From contig NZ_FTNC01000026.1 of assembly GCF_900156285.1 (NCBI RefSeq), positions 1 through 34,820 of the forward strand: 34,820 nucleotides of DNA, read 5' to 3'. Position numbers and translations under genes: made by a program. A model generated the notes under the pieces. It was not told the DNA's origin, ran no database searches, and was given only the letters and a program-made list of their open reading frames with translations. This DNA comes from Halanaerobium kushneri (lineage in GTDB: Bacteria > Bacillota > Halanaerobiia > Halanaerobiales > Halanaerobiaceae). Below are positions 5,648 to 27,965 of the stretch, in pieces. Position 1 is the stretch's first letter, and every line of letters starts with the position of its first letter.

Positions 5648-5661
5648 ATTAATGTAAGAAT

Positions 5662-5800
5662 AGTCGCACAACTCCGAGTGTATTACAGCTAAAGCAGTTA
5701 GCCATGCTTATTACACCGACAGGGTTTAAAGGGAAATCTTTGGGCCTCCCGGAATGGAAAGGAGTGATCGATTTGGATTACATTAATTTTAATCCACCTT
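5662..5800 (+). ncRNA. Molybdenum/tungsten cofactor (Moco/Tuco-type) riboswitch aptamer
   Basis: The untranslated leader of tupA carries sequence blocks I associate with the Moco RNA motif: CTCCGAG (5672-5678), a region of paired arms, CGACAGGG, GGGAAA, GGGCCTCCCGGAA (5742-5754), GAAAGGAGTGATCGA, and a closing hairpin TGGATTA/TAATCCA ending in CCACC. The class senses molybdenum or tungsten cofactor. Because it precedes a tungstate-specific importer, the tungsten-cofactor subtype is likely. A terminator follows directly, indicating transcriptional control. Subtype depends on the P3 stem, which I could not settle by eye. Together with the flanking terminator it fills the 336-base gap between the glucosidase and tupA. 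Confidence 0.8.
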
Positions 5801-21876: not shown

Positions 21877-21905
21877 TTGACTTATTTAAATTATTCAGTT
21901 ATAAT
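21877..21905 (+). promoter_or_regulatory. Sigma-A promoter of the trp operon
   Basis: TTGACT (21877-21882) and TATAAT (21900-21905) separated by exactly 17 bases. The start would be near 21912, a few bases before the first NAG triplet, so the leader RNA begins with the protein-binding array. Confidence 0.85.
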
Positions 21906-21916
21906 GAAAAAAATTC

Positions 21917-21970
21917 GAGATGAGAAGAGCCCAGATTAGTAGAGAAGAGTTAGAGATGAGATTAGATGAG
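21917..21970 (+). promoter_or_regulatory. TRAP (MtrB) binding site, 11 triplets, in the trp leader
   Basis: Eleven NAG triplets start at 21917, 21922, 21927, 21932, 21937, 21942, 21947, 21953, 21958, 21963 and 21968: eight GAG, two TAG and one CAG, with two-base spacers except one of three. TRAP is an 11-subunit ring that, with tryptophan bound, wraps RNA through one (G/U)AG triplet per subunit at this period, so number and spacing fit exactly. The site lies between the promoter and an intrinsic terminator, as in Bacillus trp leaders. No mtrB gene is in the window, so binding is inferred. Confidence 0.88.
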
Positions 21971-21988
21971 TAAATATGAAATTAACGG

Positions 21989-22024
21989 GCCAGGTTTATA
22001 GCTATTTATAAACGTGGCTTTTTT
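21989..22024 (+). terminator. trp leader terminator 1 (attenuator)
   Basis: GCCA-G-GTTTATA (21989-22000) pairs with TATAAAC-G-TGGC (22007-22018) around a 6-base loop with one G-G mismatch, followed by six T's. It lies 18 bases after the last TRAP triplet, the position expected for tryptophan-dependent termination. Confidence 0.85.
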
Positions 22025-22075
22025 GTTTTAGCCAGAGAATGATTTGAACTTATTGCTTCAAATCATGACTAAAAC
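22025..22075 (+). promoter_or_regulatory. Structured hairpin between the two trp leader terminators
   Basis: GTTTTAG (22025-22031) pairs with CTAAAAC (22069-22075), and ATGATTTGAA (22039-22048) with TTCAAATCAT (22057-22066). Between the two helices is an asymmetric internal loop, CCAGAGA on one side and GA on the other. It has no T-run, so it is not a terminator. The role is unknown. Confidence 0.65.
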
Positions 22076-22114
22076 ACAAATTTAAATATCTAAAAATCTC
22101 TTGCTAATAACTAT

Positions 22115-22148
22115 GGTCAGGCTTTTAATTAAGCTCTGGCCGTTTTTT
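22115..22148 (+). terminator. trp leader terminator 2
   Basis: GGTCAG-GCTT (22115-22124) pairs with AAGC-t-CTGGCC (22131-22141), with one bulged base and one G-U pair, around TTAATT, followed by G and six T's. It lies 43 bases before the trpE start. With terminator 1 and the hairpin it completes the 374-base leader region. Confidence 0.8.
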
Positions 22149-22191
22149 GATTTCGGGGCAGAAAACTGAAATAAGTTAGAGGGGGAGTAAG

Positions 22192-23700
22192 ATGAAAACT
22201 AAGGCTGAATTTCTAGAGTTAACTACAGAATACAATCTGATTCCAATTTATGAGGAGTTTATTGCAGATGTTGAGACACCAATTTCTCTGTACAAAAAGC
22301 TGGCTTTAAATAAGGATTATAGCTATCTCTTGGAGAGTTCGGAAAATGATCGCTATTCTTTTATTGGGCTTAAACCGGCAGCAGTCTTAAAAAACTATGA
22401 TCAGCATTTAGAAGTGATTAGAGATGGTAAAAAAGAAAAATTAAGTGGTCAGGAAATTGTACCTTATCTGCAGCAGCAGCTTAATGAACTGAGGGTTTAT
22501 GAAGACGAAAAGCTGCCTCCTTTTTCTGGAGGGTTTGTTGGTTATTTTAATTATGAAATGATAGAGAAATGGGAAGATATTTATCATCTGGAGGCAGATA
22601 GAGAGCTGAAAAAAGATAATACACCTTTAAGTCTGCTGGTAATGACCAGGATAATAATCGCCTATGATCACCTACACAATACAGTTAAAATTATAAACAA
22701 CTTAAAAGTTGATCAAAACTTAAGCTTAAAGCAGAAAGAAAAAATTTACCGGCAGGCAAAAGAAGAAATTAAAAAAGTGAAAACAGAAATTGAAAATACT
22801 GAATCAAAATTACAGCAGCCAGCAGTAAAATCGGTTCTTAATAATTCTAAAAAATTAAAGTCAAATACTGAAAAAGAGGAATTTAAAAAAATGGTGGAGA
22901 AAGCAAAAGAGCATATTAAAGCCGGAGATATTTTTCAGATTGTGCTGTCTCAGAAATTTTCTATAGAAAATGACCTGCCTCCATTTAAAATTTACCGGGC
23001 TTTAAGATCTATAAACCCTTCCCCCTATTCTTTTTATTTGAACTTTCCTGAAATAAGAATCATTGGTTCCTCACCTGAAGTTCTGGTAAGAGTTAGAGAT
23101 CAAAGGGTGCTGACCCGACCTCTGGCAGGGACCAGGCGCAGAGGTAAAGACAGTAAAGAAGATCAAGAATTAAAGCTGGATTTGCTCAGTGATGAAAAAG
23201 AAAAAGCAGAACACACGATGCTTTTGGATTTAGGCCGTAATGATTTAAGCAGGATTGCGGCAAAGGGAAGTGTAGAAGTTACAGAATTAATGGAAGTAGA
23301 ATTTTATTCTAAAGTGATGCATATTGTTTCTCAGGTGGAAGCAGATTTGCGTGAGGGACTGGACAGTCTTGATGTTTTAAAAGCTGTTTTTCCGGCCGGT
23401 ACAGTTTCCGGAGCTCCAAAAATTAAAGCAGTTGAACTGATTGATCAGCTGGAAAAAGAAGCGCGGGGAGTATATGCGGGTACAGTTGCTTATTTAAGTT
23501 TTAATGGAAATCTGGACAGCTGTATTACAATTAGAACCTTTTCTTTAGTAGACGGAAAACTTAACTTACAGGTCGGAGCAGGAATTGTTGCTGATTCTGA
23601 TCCAGTAAAAGAATATCAGGAAACACTTAACAAGGGCCGGGCATTGTTTGACGCTCTCAAAGTGGTAAGAGAGGATGGTATCCGTGATTTTAGTAATTGA
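22192..23700 (+). CDS. trpE: Anthranilate synthase component I
   Basis: 502 residues. It turns chorismate into anthranilate using ammonia from TrpG. The N-terminal part carries the tryptophan feedback site LLESSENDRYSFIG (residues 43-56). The chorismate-binding domain shows IFQIVLSQKF, NPSPYSFYL, GSSPEVLVRV, RPLAGTRRRG, DLGRNDLSRIA, FPAGTVSGAPKIKA and the C-terminal VGAGIVADSDP. The feedback signature suggests allosteric control in addition to the RNA control of the leader. ATG 22192 follows AGAGGGGGAG. Its last 17 bases overlap trpG. Confidence 0.97.
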   Translation: MKTKAEFLELTTEYNLIPIYEEFIADVETPISLYKKLALNKDYSYLLESSENDRYSFIGLKPAAVLKNYDQHLEVIRDGKKEKLSGQEIVPYLQQQLNELRVYEDEKLPPFSGGFVGYFNYEMIEKWEDIYHLEADRELKKDNTPLSLLVMTRIIIAYDHLHNTVKIINNLKVDQNLSLKQKEKIYRQAKEEIKKVKTEIENTESKLQQPAVKSVLNNSKKLKSNTEKEEFKKMVEKAKEHIKAGDIFQIVLSQKFSIENDLPPFKIYRALRSINPSPYSFYLNFPEIRIIGSSPEVLVRVRDQRVLTRPLAGTRRRGKDSKEDQELKLDLLSDEKEKAEHTMLLDLGRNDLSRIAAKGSVEVTELMEVEFYSKVMHIVSQVEADLREGLDSLDVLKAVFPAGTVSGAPKIKAVELIDQLEKEARGVYAGTVAYLSFNGNLDSCITIRTFSLVDGKLNLQVGAGIVADSDPVKEYQETLNKGRALFDALKVVREDGIRDFSN

Positions 23701-24250
23701 TAATTATGATTCCTTTACCTATAATCTGGTTCATCTGCTGGAAGAGTTTGATGAGGTTAAAGTGTTGAGAAATGATAAACTTTCTGTTGAGGACATAGAA
23801 ATTATGGCACCTGATAAAATTATAATTTCTCCGGGACCGGGAAGGCCAGATGATGCAGGAATTTCAAAAAAAATAATAGAATATTTTAAAGATAAGATTG
23901 ATATTTTGGGAGTCTGTCTTGGCCATCAGTGTATTGGAGAGGTTTTTGGCTCTCAAGTAGTAAAGGCTGATCAAATTGTGCATGGAAAAGTTTCAGCAAT
24001 AAAAAAAATAAGAGAGGAAAGATTATTTAAGGGGATTGAAGATGGCTTTCTGGCTACCCGCTATCATTCCCTAATAGTTAAAAAAGCAGGTCTGAGCGCT
24101 GAGCTTGAGGTGCTGGCAGAAAGTGAAGAAGGAGAAATAATGGCTTTAAAGCATAAAAATTATCCTGTTTATGGTGTTCAGTTTCATCCGGAATCAATTT
24201 TGACCGAGGCTGGCAGACAGCTGATAAAAAATTTTCTTAACGTAAAGTGA
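23684..24250 (+). CDS. trpG: Anthranilate synthase component II (glutamine amidotransferase)
   Basis: 188 residues of the class I amidotransferase fold, supplying ammonia from glutamine to TrpE. Motifs: LVIDNYDSFTYN, ISPGPGRPDDAG, nucleophile Cys in LGVCLGHQCIGE, and the His/Glu of VQFHPESILT. GTG 23684 is preferred, with AGAGG 10 bases upstream; an in-frame ATG at 23675 directly abuts that site. It overlaps trpE by 17 bases, indicating coupled synthesis of the two subunits. It may also serve folate (PabA) synthesis, as in Bacillus. Its stop codon is the first element of a second TRAP-like triplet cluster. Confidence 0.95.
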   Translation: MILVIDNYDSFTYNLVHLLEEFDEVKVLRNDKLSVEDIEIMAPDKIIISPGPGRPDDAGISKKIIEYFKDKIDILGVCLGHQCIGEVFGSQVVKADQIVHGKVSAIKKIREERLFKGIEDGFLATRYHSLIVKKAGLSAELEVLAESEEGEIMALKHKNYPVYGVQFHPESILTEAGRQLIKNFLNVK

Positions 24251-24290
24251 GCTGAGATGAGATAAGATAAGTATAACTAGAGGAGGAGAG
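24249..24290 (+). promoter_or_regulatory. Second TRAP-like triplet cluster covering the trpD ribosome site
   Basis: Triplets start at 24249 GAG, 24254 GAG, 24259 GAG, 24264 AAG, 24269 AAG, then after a longer gap 24278 TAG, 24283 GAG and 24288 GAG, otherwise at five-base spacing. They run from inside the trpG stop to three bases before the trpD ATG and contain its AGGAGGAG ribosome site. TRAP bound here would directly block trpD translation. Further triplets at the same spacing continue in the first codons of trpD (24323, 24328, 24338, 24343, 24348). Confidence 0.7.
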
Positions 24291-24293
24291 AAA

Positions 24294-25313
24294 ATGTTTA
24301 ACAAACATTTAGATAAAGTAGTGAGCAGAGAGAATTTAAGTTTAGAAGAGATGGAAGAGGCCATGACAATGGTAATGGAGGGCAAGACTACTGATAGTCA
24401 GCTGGCAGGATTTTTAGTTGGGTTAAGAATGAAAGGTGAAACTATTGATGAAATAACTGGTGCAGCCAGTGTAATGCGCAGTAAAGCAGCTGCAGTGAAA
24501 ACTAAAAGCAAAAATTTAATTGACAGCTGTGGAACTGGAGGAGATGAAAAAGGAACCTTTAATATTTCCACGACCACAGCAATTGTTATGGCAGCTGGAG
24601 GCTTAAATGTCGCCAAACACGGCAATCGTTCTGTATCTTCAAAAAGCGGCAGTGCTGATCTGCTGGAGGCACTGGGAGTAAAAATTGATTTATCACCAGA
24701 AGCAGCTGGTAAATGTCTGGATCAGGTCGGAATTTCATTTCTGTTTGCACCTCATTTTCATCAGGCAATGAAATATGCTGTTGGTCCCCGGAGAGAACTG
24801 GGCCTGAGAACAATTTTTAATGTTCTGGGACCCCTCACCAATCCAGCCCAGGCTGATTATCAGGTTCTTGGAGTTTACAAGGAAGAACTGGTAATGCCGC
24901 TGGCCCATGTACTTAAAAATCTTGGTTTGAAATCAGCAATGGTTGTTCACGGTGCTGGTGGGGTGGATGAGCTTTCACTGGCTGGGGAAAACAAAACTGC
25001 TTATTTAAAAGATGGAGCAGTCAAAGAATTTAACTTCAGTCCGGCAGAAGCTGGTCTGAAAACTGCAGCTATTGATGAAATTTTAGGCGGCAGTCCGAAA
25101 GAAAATAAAGAAATTACACTTGCTATATTAAAAGGTAAAAAAGGACCTAAAAGAGATGTAATTCTGCTTAATTCTGCTGCAGCCTTTCTGGTTGAAGATA
25201 AAGTTAATGATTTAAAAGAGGGTGTTAAACTGGCGGCAGAACTAATAGACAGCGGTCAGGCATTAAAGAAGTTAGAAGATCTTATTAACTGCAGCAATTC
25301 AGTGGTGGTGTAG
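24294..25313 (+). CDS. trpD: Anthranilate phosphoribosyltransferase
   Basis: 339 residues, the normal length. It joins anthranilate to PRPP. Motifs are DSCGTGGDEKGTFNIS (PRPP binding), KHGNRSVSSKSGSADLLEALG, and GPRRELGLRTIFNVLGPLTNP. HGAGGVDELS follows. ATG 24294 is preceded by AGGAGGAG, which is embedded in a TRAP-like cluster, so translation of this gene may be tuned separately from trpEG. The stop TAG shares its last base with the possible trpC GTG start. Confidence 0.97.
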   Translation: MFNKHLDKVVSRENLSLEEMEEAMTMVMEGKTTDSQLAGFLVGLRMKGETIDEITGAASVMRSKAAAVKTKSKNLIDSCGTGGDEKGTFNISTTTAIVMAAGGLNVAKHGNRSVSSKSGSADLLEALGVKIDLSPEAAGKCLDQVGISFLFAPHFHQAMKYAVGPRRELGLRTIFNVLGPLTNPAQADYQVLGVYKEELVMPLAHVLKNLGLKSAMVVHGAGGVDELSLAGENKTAYLKDGAVKEFNFSPAEAGLKTAAIDEILGGSPKENKEITLAILKGKKGPKRDVILLNSAAAFLVEDKVNDLKEGVKLAAELIDSGQALKKLEDLINCSNSVVV

Positions 25314-25315
25314 TG

Positions 25316-26059
25316 ATGATATTAGATAAAATAATTTTGGAGAAGAAAAAAGAAGTAGATAATTTAAAAAAACCGAGATATTCTCTTAAAAAAAAGCTGG
25401 CTCAGGACAAAATTTCTCTGCTGGCAGAAATTAAAAAAGCATCTCCCAGCAGAGGTATAATTCAGCCTGATTTTAAGCCTGAAGCACAGCTTAAGGCTTA
25501 TGAGAAAGCTGGAGCAGATGGAATTTCAATTTTAACTGATCAAAAGTTTTTTCAGGGGAGTAATGAGATTTTAAGAGAGATGAGAAAGCTGACTGAGCTG
25601 CCGATTCTGCGTAAAGAATTTATTATTGATCCTCTGCAGCTTTATGAGAGTTTTTTTATCGGGGCAGATGTAGTCCTTTTAATAGCTGCTGTGCTCAGTG
25701 ACCGGAGATTGAAAGAACTTCTGGCTCTCTGCAGTGAGCTCAAAATGGAAGCTCTGGTTGAAGTTCATAATCGTGAAGAACTGCAGAGGGTCTGCGCGAC
25801 TGAAGCTGAGATTATAGGTATCAATAATCGGGACTTAAATGATTTTAGTGTTGATCTTAAAACAACCGCTGAACTAACAGCTGAGCTAGAAAAAAAGAAA
25901 CTTAGAGATGATTATTACTTGATTGCAGAAAGTGGTATCAAAAAAAGAGAAGATATTGATTTTCTAAAGGATATTGGAGTTGATGGAGTTCTGATTGGAG
26001 AGACATTGATGAGGGCAGAAGATCCAAAAACTAAAGTCAACGAATTGGGGTTGGGGTGA
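25316..26059 (+). CDS. trpC: Indole-3-glycerol-phosphate synthase
   Basis: 247 residues of a TIM barrel that closes the indole ring. Motifs: LLAEIKKASPSRG (catalytic lysine), ADGISILTDQKFFQGS, LRKEFIIDPLQLYES, EVHNREEL, IIGINNRDLNDFSVDL and LIAESGIKKREDI. The start is ATG 25316; GTG 25313 overlaps the trpD stop and is equally possible. There is no strong ribosome site, so translation is likely coupled to trpD. A separate gene from trpF, not fused. Confidence 0.96.
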   Translation: MILDKIILEKKKEVDNLKKPRYSLKKKLAQDKISLLAEIKKASPSRGIIQPDFKPEAQLKAYEKAGADGISILTDQKFFQGSNEILREMRKLTELPILRKEFIIDPLQLYESFFIGADVVLLIAAVLSDRRLKELLALCSELKMEALVEVHNREELQRVCATEAEIIGINNRDLNDFSVDLKTTAELTAELEKKKLRDDYYLIAESGIKKREDIDFLKDIGVDGVLIGETLMRAEDPKTKVNELGLG

Positions 26060-26066
26060 GAAATTA

Positions 26067-26726
26067 ATGTTAGAAAATCGAACAATGATTAAAGTTTGTG
26101 GAATGACACGGAGAGAAGACATTAAATTTGCAGCCAATATTGGAGTTGATGCAGTAGGCTTTATACTTGCTGAAAGTTCAAGGCAGGTCAGTCTCAGCAG
26201 GGTTCGAAAACTTATAGATGACTGTCCTCCCTTTATCAGCAGGGTTGCGGTTGTTGTTAATCCAACTAAAAATGAGATTAAGGAGATTACAGATAGCCGC
26301 CTGTTTGACTATATTCAGTTTCACGGCAGTGAAGAAGTCGAATTAATTAAGAATACTCCCTTAAAAAGTATTAAAGCTATTTCTATTGCTGGAGAAGAAG
26401 ACTTAAAAGAGCTTGAAAAATATAAAGAAGCCGCTGACTTTTTACTTTTTGACACAAAAATTGGCAGCCAGACCGGAGGCACGGGAGAAAGTTTTGACTG
26501 GTCTTTAATTAGTAATCTAAAAATTCCATATATACTTGCCGGTGGACTGGGACCTAAAAATATAAAAGAAGCCTTAACTAAACTTAATCCAACTGCAGTA
26601 GATATTAACAGTAGAGTCGAAAATGAACCGGGTAAGAAAAATCATCGGCTGCTGAAAGAGATTGTAGAAAAAATTAAGAATTTCAAGCCCAGATTTGAGG
26701 CAAAAATAAAGTTAAGGACAGATTAA
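26067..26726 (+). CDS. trpF: Phosphoribosylanthranilate isomerase
   Basis: 219 residues, slightly longer than the usual 200-210 because of a basic C-terminal tail (NFKPRFEAKIKLRTD). The TIM-barrel motifs are IKVCGMTRREDI (catalytic Cys), VGFILAESSRQVS, IQFHGSEE, LFDTKIGSQTGGTGESFDWS (catalytic Asp) and LAGGLGPKNI. GGGGTGAG before ATG 26067 is the ribosome site. It lies 7 bases after trpC in the same operon. Confidence 0.95.
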   Translation: MLENRTMIKVCGMTRREDIKFAANIGVDAVGFILAESSRQVSLSRVRKLIDDCPPFISRVAVVVNPTKNEIKEITDSRLFDYIQFHGSEEVELIKNTPLKSIKAISIAGEEDLKELEKYKEAADFLLFDTKIGSQTGGTGESFDWSLISNLKIPYILAGGLGPKNIKEALTKLNPTAVDINSRVENEPGKKNHRLLKEIVEKIKNFKPRFEAKIKLRTD

Positions 26727-26780
26727 TGACAGTTTTTTTATTTAAATATTTTTCTTATAAAGCTGAAAGGAGTAGAGAAG

Positions 26781-27965
26781 ATGAGCAGAGGATATTTTAA
26801 AGAATTTGGGGGGCGTTTTGTCCCGGAAACTCTAATGCCAGCCTTAGATGAGCTGGAAGAAGTTTATTTAGAGATGAAAGATGATCCCGATTTTGTTAAT
26901 GAATTAAAGTCACTGCTGGCTGATTACAGCGGCCGGCCGACTTCTTTATATTATGCTGAACAGCTTACCAGTTACTATGGAGGAGCAAAGATTTATTTAA
27001 AGCGTGAAGATTTAAATCATACTGGAGCACATAAAATTAATAATACTCTCGGTCAGATACTGCTGGCCAGAAAAATGGGTAAAAAGCGAATTATTGCTGA
27101 AACAGGTGCCGGACAGCATGGTGTAGCAACAGCAACAGTGGCAGCCAGATTTAATCTGGAGTGTGAAATTTATATGGGGGCAGAAGATATCGAGCGTCAG
27201 GCGCTTAATGTCTACAAGATGGAAATGCTGGGAGCAGAGGTTATTCCGGTCACCAGCGGTACTCAGACTTTAAAAGATGCAACAAATGAAGCAATTCGAG
27301 ACTGGGTTACAAATGTTGAAGATACGCATTATATCATTGGCTCAGTAGTTGGTCCCCATCCCTATCCTGAGATGGTTCGGGATTTTCAGCGAATTATTGG
27401 AGATGAATGCAGAGAGCAGATCAAGGAAAAAGAAGGTAGACTGCCGGATTATATTTTAGCCTGTGTTGGTGGTGGCAGTAATGCAATGGGAATATTTTAT
27501 CCTTTTGTTGATGATCAGGAAGTTAATTTAATTGGAATTGAAGCTTCCGGAAAAGGAATTGATAGTGGCCAGCATGCAGCAACTTTGTCTGCCGGCAGAG
27601 TCGGAGTTTTACACGGCAGCAAATCTTATCTGCTGCAGGATGATGATGGGCAGGTAATACCAGCCTACTCAATTTCTGCCGGGCTCGATTATCCAGGTGT
27701 GGGTCCTGAGCACAGTTATTTAAAGTCAATTAATCGAGTGGATTATCAGGCAGCAACTGATATGGAGGCAGTGGCAGCTTTTAAACTTTTAAGTGAAAAA
27801 GAAGGTATTATACCTGCGCTGGAGAGCTCACATGCACTCTCTTATTTGGAAAAACTTGCTCCAGAGCTGGCAGAAGACCAGATCATTGTAGTTAACCTTT
27901 CTGGGCGTGGAGATAAAGATATTAATAACTTTAAGAAGATCAGGGAGGCAGAAAATAATGAATAA
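26781..27965 (+). CDS. trpB: Tryptophan synthase beta chain
   Basis: 394 residues of the TrpB1 type. It condenses indole with serine using PLP. The PLP lysine lies in [13 protein letters not shown] (about residue 87), the phosphate is held by [10 protein letters not shown], and [12 protein letters not shown] and LSGRGDKD are family hallmarks. The 54-base gap before it holds no terminator. GAG triplets around its ribosome site and start (26770, 26775, 26783, 26788) resemble a partial TRAP site. It overlaps trpA by 8 bases, consistent with assembly of the alpha-beta complex. Confidence 0.97.

Follow-up and report, generated by a model that had tools for sequence, protein, structure and literature searches.

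TRAP is a textbook regulator that, to our knowledge, is known almost entirely from Bacillus. The locus considered here raises the question of whether TRAP may act on one trp operon at two places, the leader and the start of an internal cistron. The window, that is, the whole stretch of 34,820 nt of Halanaerobium kushneri DNA, contains a trpEGDCFBA operon, as established from the list of open reading frames (ORFs) and Pfam matches. Our answer is that the segment 24249–24290, immediately upstream of trpD, is very probably a second TRAP site of this operon, which serves for tryptophan-dependent occlusion of the trpD ribosome site; we infer both the binding and the repression.

All features of the operon are on the forward strand. 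The likely trp promoter (TTGACT-17-TATAAT, 21877–21905) matches the consensus at 11 of 12 positions, and a leader array of triplets starts 12 nt downstream of it. The trpE gene (22192–23700) is recognised by Pfam domains Chorismate_bind and Anth_synt_I_N. The trpG gene (23675–24250; Pfam GATase and the ORF list) overlaps the end of trpE and terminates with TGA at 24248–24250. The trpD gene (24294–25313; Pfam Glycos_transf_3 and Glycos_trans_3N) is the proposed controlled cistron. It is followed by trpC and trpF (25316–26726, from the ORF list), and since these start 2 and 7 nt after the genes that precede them, they are probably coupled to trpD translation. Their starts carry no triplet arrays, the scores being 1.7 and 2.0 (the scoring is described below). 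The trpB start features a weak candidate site of five triplets (AAGgagTAGagAAGatGAGcaGAG, 26767–26793, score 6.9). The trpB start of H. salsuginis (L037:7520) has a stronger array, with eight triplets and a score of 8.4.

The leader upstream of trpE contains the best TRAP-type site of the window (21917–21970, score 19.0), formed by 11 NAG triplets with spacers of 2–3 nt. This array is conserved in the genus, most members having 10–13 triplets. Downstream of it there is a terminator hairpin with a U-run (21987–22026, −15.8 kcal/mol), and in the folds of truncated transcripts the TRAP-site segment GAGCCCAG pairs with CGGGCC, yielding a weak antiterminator. Hence the arrangement characteristic of a leader attenuator, an antiterminator overlap and then an intrinsic terminator, is present at 21917–22026; it is absent at the trpG–trpD junction. 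A second terminator-like hairpin, conserved genus-wide, is situated at 22110–22150 (GGUCAGGC...GCUCUGGCCGUUUUUUG), between the TRAP attenuator and trpE. The region 22025–22200 folds far better than its shuffles (z = −3.9), and UCUCUU is predicted to pair with the Shine–Dalgarno (SD) sequence of trpE. It is possible that the 22110–22150 hairpin is a second attenuator or controls the trpE SD, and the latter may itself be sequestered.

The array at the trpG–trpD junction (GAGctGAGatGAGatAAGatAAGtataacTAGagGAGgaGAG, 24249–24290) consists of eight triplets, GAG at 24249, 24254 and 24259, AAG at 24264 and 24269, TAG at 24278, and GAG at 24283 and 24288. The spacers are 2, 2, 2, 2, 6, 2 and 2 nt, that is, all steps but one are of five bases. 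The array extends from the trpG stop codon, with which its first triplet overlaps, to 3 nt before the trpD ATG (24294), where the last triplet ends. These coordinates confirm the preliminary description, which had reported eight triplets at five-base spacing, with one longer gap, covering the trpD SD. A TRAP site is expected to have at least seven NAG triplets, with N mostly G or U and spacers mostly of 2–3 nt; the junction has eight (six G/UAG and two AAG), with the caveat of the two AAG triplets and the single 6-nt spacer. In a ribosome-occluding target, the array overlaps the SD or the start codon, and here the SD block itself (TAGAGGAGGAGAG, 24278–24290) is made up of the last three triplets. 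It was also suggested that further triplets in phase occur in the first trpD codons. These triplets (24310–24359) begin 20 nt past the last triplet of the site, recur in genomes G024–G026, which have no upstream array, and erode in G015, G017 and G018; they therefore track the coding sequence and were dropped from the site. No terminator-like hairpin was found at the junction, nor does it have an unusual fold (z = +0.39). An internal promoter there was rejected, as promoter-like matches in this region are no more frequent than in shuffles.

The arrays were scored as chains of NAG triplets (GAG 2, TAG 1.7, AAG 0.8, CAG 0), where a spacer of 2 nt is free and other spacers are penalised; the weights were chosen by us from the known TRAP properties. 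The score of the junction array is 11.3. In the background sample, 1.10 Mb of the same genome on both strands, it is matched at one place, the start of a YheO-like PAS/HTH gene, where the high score is reached only via many irregular spacers. The maximum over 560 SD-bearing starts in these 1.1 Mb is 7.2, and the 99th percentile is 5.9. When the stretch is shuffled with dinucleotides preserved, 11.3 is reached in 8 cases out of 5000, and in 27 out of 5000 if the SD block is kept fixed, hence the score is partly due to base composition. A strict pattern, five DAG triplets spaced by five-base steps, produces 15 overlapping matches in the 3.2-Mb genome versus four for the reversed pattern, the latter being a weak control because GAG is identical when reversed. 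Among the strict matches are the trpD junction and the starts of the TrpP tryptophan transporter gene and of a stand-alone trpB-like gene.

The trpD array is found in most of the Halanaerobium species that have trpEGD. All 11 genus members with these genes share an identical block TAGAGGAGGAGAG, and at positions −20 to −6 of trpD, 11 of 15 columns are invariant in these members, compared to two for trpE, one for trpF and three for trpB, although some conservation of the array is expected anyway, as part of it is the SD. The trpD chain scores range from 6.0 to 12.3, and the positions and spacings of the triplets differ among the genus members. Ahead of the SD block, seven of them (G000, G010, G014–G017, G019) retain three to five triplets that exceed the 99th percentile for ordinary starts; the run seen there in G011 is a different one (TAGagTAGaTAGta), and G012, G018 and G020 have little. 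The trpD scores in G016, G019 and G020, only 6.0–6.8, are within the tail of ordinary SD-bearing starts. The distance from the trpG stop to the trpD start varies among the relatives from about 31 to 118 nt, and the array remains on the trpD SD. Unanchored scans of 13-kb loci from three named species (L034, L035, L036) produced two arrays in each, one in the leader and one at the trpD junction.

Beyond the genus, arrays at the trpD start are seen in two other families of the same order, represented by G028 and G029 (AAGagGAGctGAGatGAGatGAGaaGAG), where mtrB precedes trpEGDCFBA, and by G005. They are absent in G024–G026, G002–G004, G006, G008 and G009, also from this order. We then considered the phylum sample of 72 TRAP-positive and 34 TRAP-negative genomes with a trpD match, setting the array cut-off at a score of at least 7. 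The array is present at the trpD start in 53 of the 72 TRAP-positive genomes and in one of the 34 TRAP-negative ones (Fisher test, 7e-13). As the genomes were taken from the best trpD matches, these fractions are no unbiased census; about a quarter of the sampled TRAP-positive genomes have no array. The count by family, 27 of 37 TRAP-positive against 0 of 17 TRAP-negative (3.6e-7), is safer, since genomes of one family are not independent. Among the 48 TRAP-positive junctions with a recognised trpG upstream, 39 have the array. In 24 TRAP-positive trp loci, the cut-off is reached at 18 of 24 trpD starts, but at none of 16 trpG, 21 trpC and 23 trpF starts, nor at any other SD-bearing start of these loci. 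Thus the triplets do not vary freely among related genomes, as they might have done had the preliminary description been wrong: the array recurs across Halanaerobium, and its occurrence tracks TRAP across 54 family groups.

TRAP itself (MtrB) is encoded in the H. kushneri genome (G000:C25:113719), and 32 of the 38 genomes from the order have mtrB. The residues contacting RNA in TRAP are F32, E36, K37, D39, K56 and R58 (PMC3184956), and all six are conserved in this MtrB when it is aligned against solved TRAP structures. The family search for anti-TRAP found no convincing gene. Nearly all matches were inside long frames of about 340–400 amino acids, which we read as almost certainly DnaJ zinc fingers, and they were rejected.

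Several other TRAP-type arrays were observed. The H. kushneri genome has arrays over the starts of the stand-alone trpB-like gene and the TrpP transporter gene (G000:C28:164445, L220; G000:C45:90600, L226), which speaks in favour of the TRAP reading of the junction. In the same genome, seven perfectly spaced triplets (TAGatGAGtaAAGttAAGctGAGatGAGagGAG; L133:1501-1533, that is, G000:C32:47994-48026) extend over the SD of a short ORF (MLDQMVEKYEDL...), behind which lies a gene with no Pfam match; this is a possible unrecognised TRAP target. In G005, a TRAP-like array covers the start of the DAHP synthase gene (L204:16921-16949), which suggests that TRAP may reach the common aromatic pathway too. 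TRAP-like arrays are also seen ahead of nadA, encoding quinolinate synthase, and over a trpB-like gene directly behind mtrB (L171:1501, G011; L180, L181, G024, G025). The window also has a molybdenum cofactor (Moco) riboswitch (5660–5780, Rfam RF01055) ahead of an apparent ABC transporter of the tungstate/molybdate type.

The junction array could be just a strong purine-rich ribosome-binding site or a translation enhancer, similar to a TRAP site by chance. Indeed, the SD block accounts for three of the eight triplets, and shuffles that keep this block do sometimes reach the observed score. On the other hand, no other SD-bearing start of the H. kushneri sample comes near that score, the other trp starts of the same operons lack arrays, and a mere ribosome-binding site is disfavoured by the association with TRAP (53 of 72 genomes against one of 34). 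Hence we consider chance resemblance very unlikely.

Alternatively, TRAP could bind the array and mainly affect the transcript, via pausing, termination or RNA stability at the trpG–trpD boundary, or else termination of trpG. In B. subtilis, TRAP can induce termination when the trp attenuator hairpin is lacking (PMC3913778), and in the window the site begins within the trpG stop codon. However, neither a terminator-like hairpin nor an unusual fold is seen at the junction, and in the relatives the array stays over the trpD SD at any observed distance from the trpG stop, so an effect exerted mainly on the transcript seems very improbable. As for a decoy that buffers free TRAP and does not regulate trpD, nothing specific speaks in its favour, titration being common to any binding site. 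A decoy would not require placement on the SD, and this placement in 27 of 37 TRAP-bearing families, with the array usually ending at about −20 to +25 relative to the start, makes titration as the sole role extremely doubtful.

The preferred reading is that TRAP occludes the trpD ribosome site. With abundant tryptophan, the TRAP ring would bind the array and cover the trpD SD, ribosomes would be unable to start at trpD, and trpC and trpF would presumably fall along with it. The preliminary description further proposed that trpEG would continue while trpD onward is repressed; this part is less certain, since the trpE SD may be sequestered as well. The site would act as a second checkpoint for transcripts that have passed the leader attenuator. 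The reason for such a site would be that trpD, lying 43 nt behind trpG, is served by a separate ribosome site and, unlike in B. subtilis, is translationally uncoupled from trpE. The recurrence of the array in most TRAP-bearing families of the Bacillota sampled, and not in TRAP-less ones, suggests that a second checkpoint inside the operon is widespread. Should many Bacillota families besides that of Bacillus have a TRAP site at trpD, TRAP could adjust how much anthranilate synthase (TrpEG) is made relative to the later enzymes from a single transcript, and one could test directly the rule that the first cistron uncoupled from trpE is the one blocked by TRAP. As TRAP is found in 200 of 398 sampled genomes of the phylum, that is, in half of them, this is relevant to tryptophan control in a large group. 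No description of an internal TRAP site at trpD or of TRAP in Halanaerobium was found in the open-access literature searched; an earlier mention in subscription papers is possible.

The junction site may be compared with three TRAP systems of B. subtilis. TRAP represses trpG, trpP and ycbK by covering their ribosome sites (PMC11255114), and RNAs with at least seven triplets are stably bound by it (PMC4027176). The H. kushneri site resembles these targets in that NAG triplets, mostly with 2-nt spacers, include the SD, no hairpin is needed, and the genome encodes TRAP. Unlike trpG, trpP and ycbK, which lie outside the trp operon, the target here is an internal cistron of an operon that is already equipped with a TRAP attenuator in its leader. 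The second system is the B. subtilis trp leader, with attenuation and sequestration of the trpE SD (PMC11255114, PMC4027176). The leader of the window is similar to it, having 11 triplets, a terminator and mutually exclusive pairing, whereas at the junction there is neither a terminator nor an antiterminator, and the array covers the SD directly. Finally, the preliminary description was right to contrast this operon with Bacillus, where the trpG target is outside the trp operon, the nuance being that B. subtilis trpD is repressed by TRAP indirectly, via its 29-nt overlap with trpE (PMC2311275). This overlap makes a separate site at B. subtilis trpD unnecessary. In H. kushneri, trpD translation would likewise be under TRAP, as far as the sequence tells, but between trpE and trpD lie trpG and a gap. 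In Anoxybacillus (L039), a TRAP-bearing member of the Bacillaceae, there is a leader array only and none at trpD. On balance, we lean slightly towards the view that two-stage control by TRAP, leader attenuation plus blocking of the trpD ribosome site, is the common layout in TRAP-bearing Bacillota, and that Bacillus is the exception, originating in lineages in which trpE overlaps trpD and trpG has moved away.
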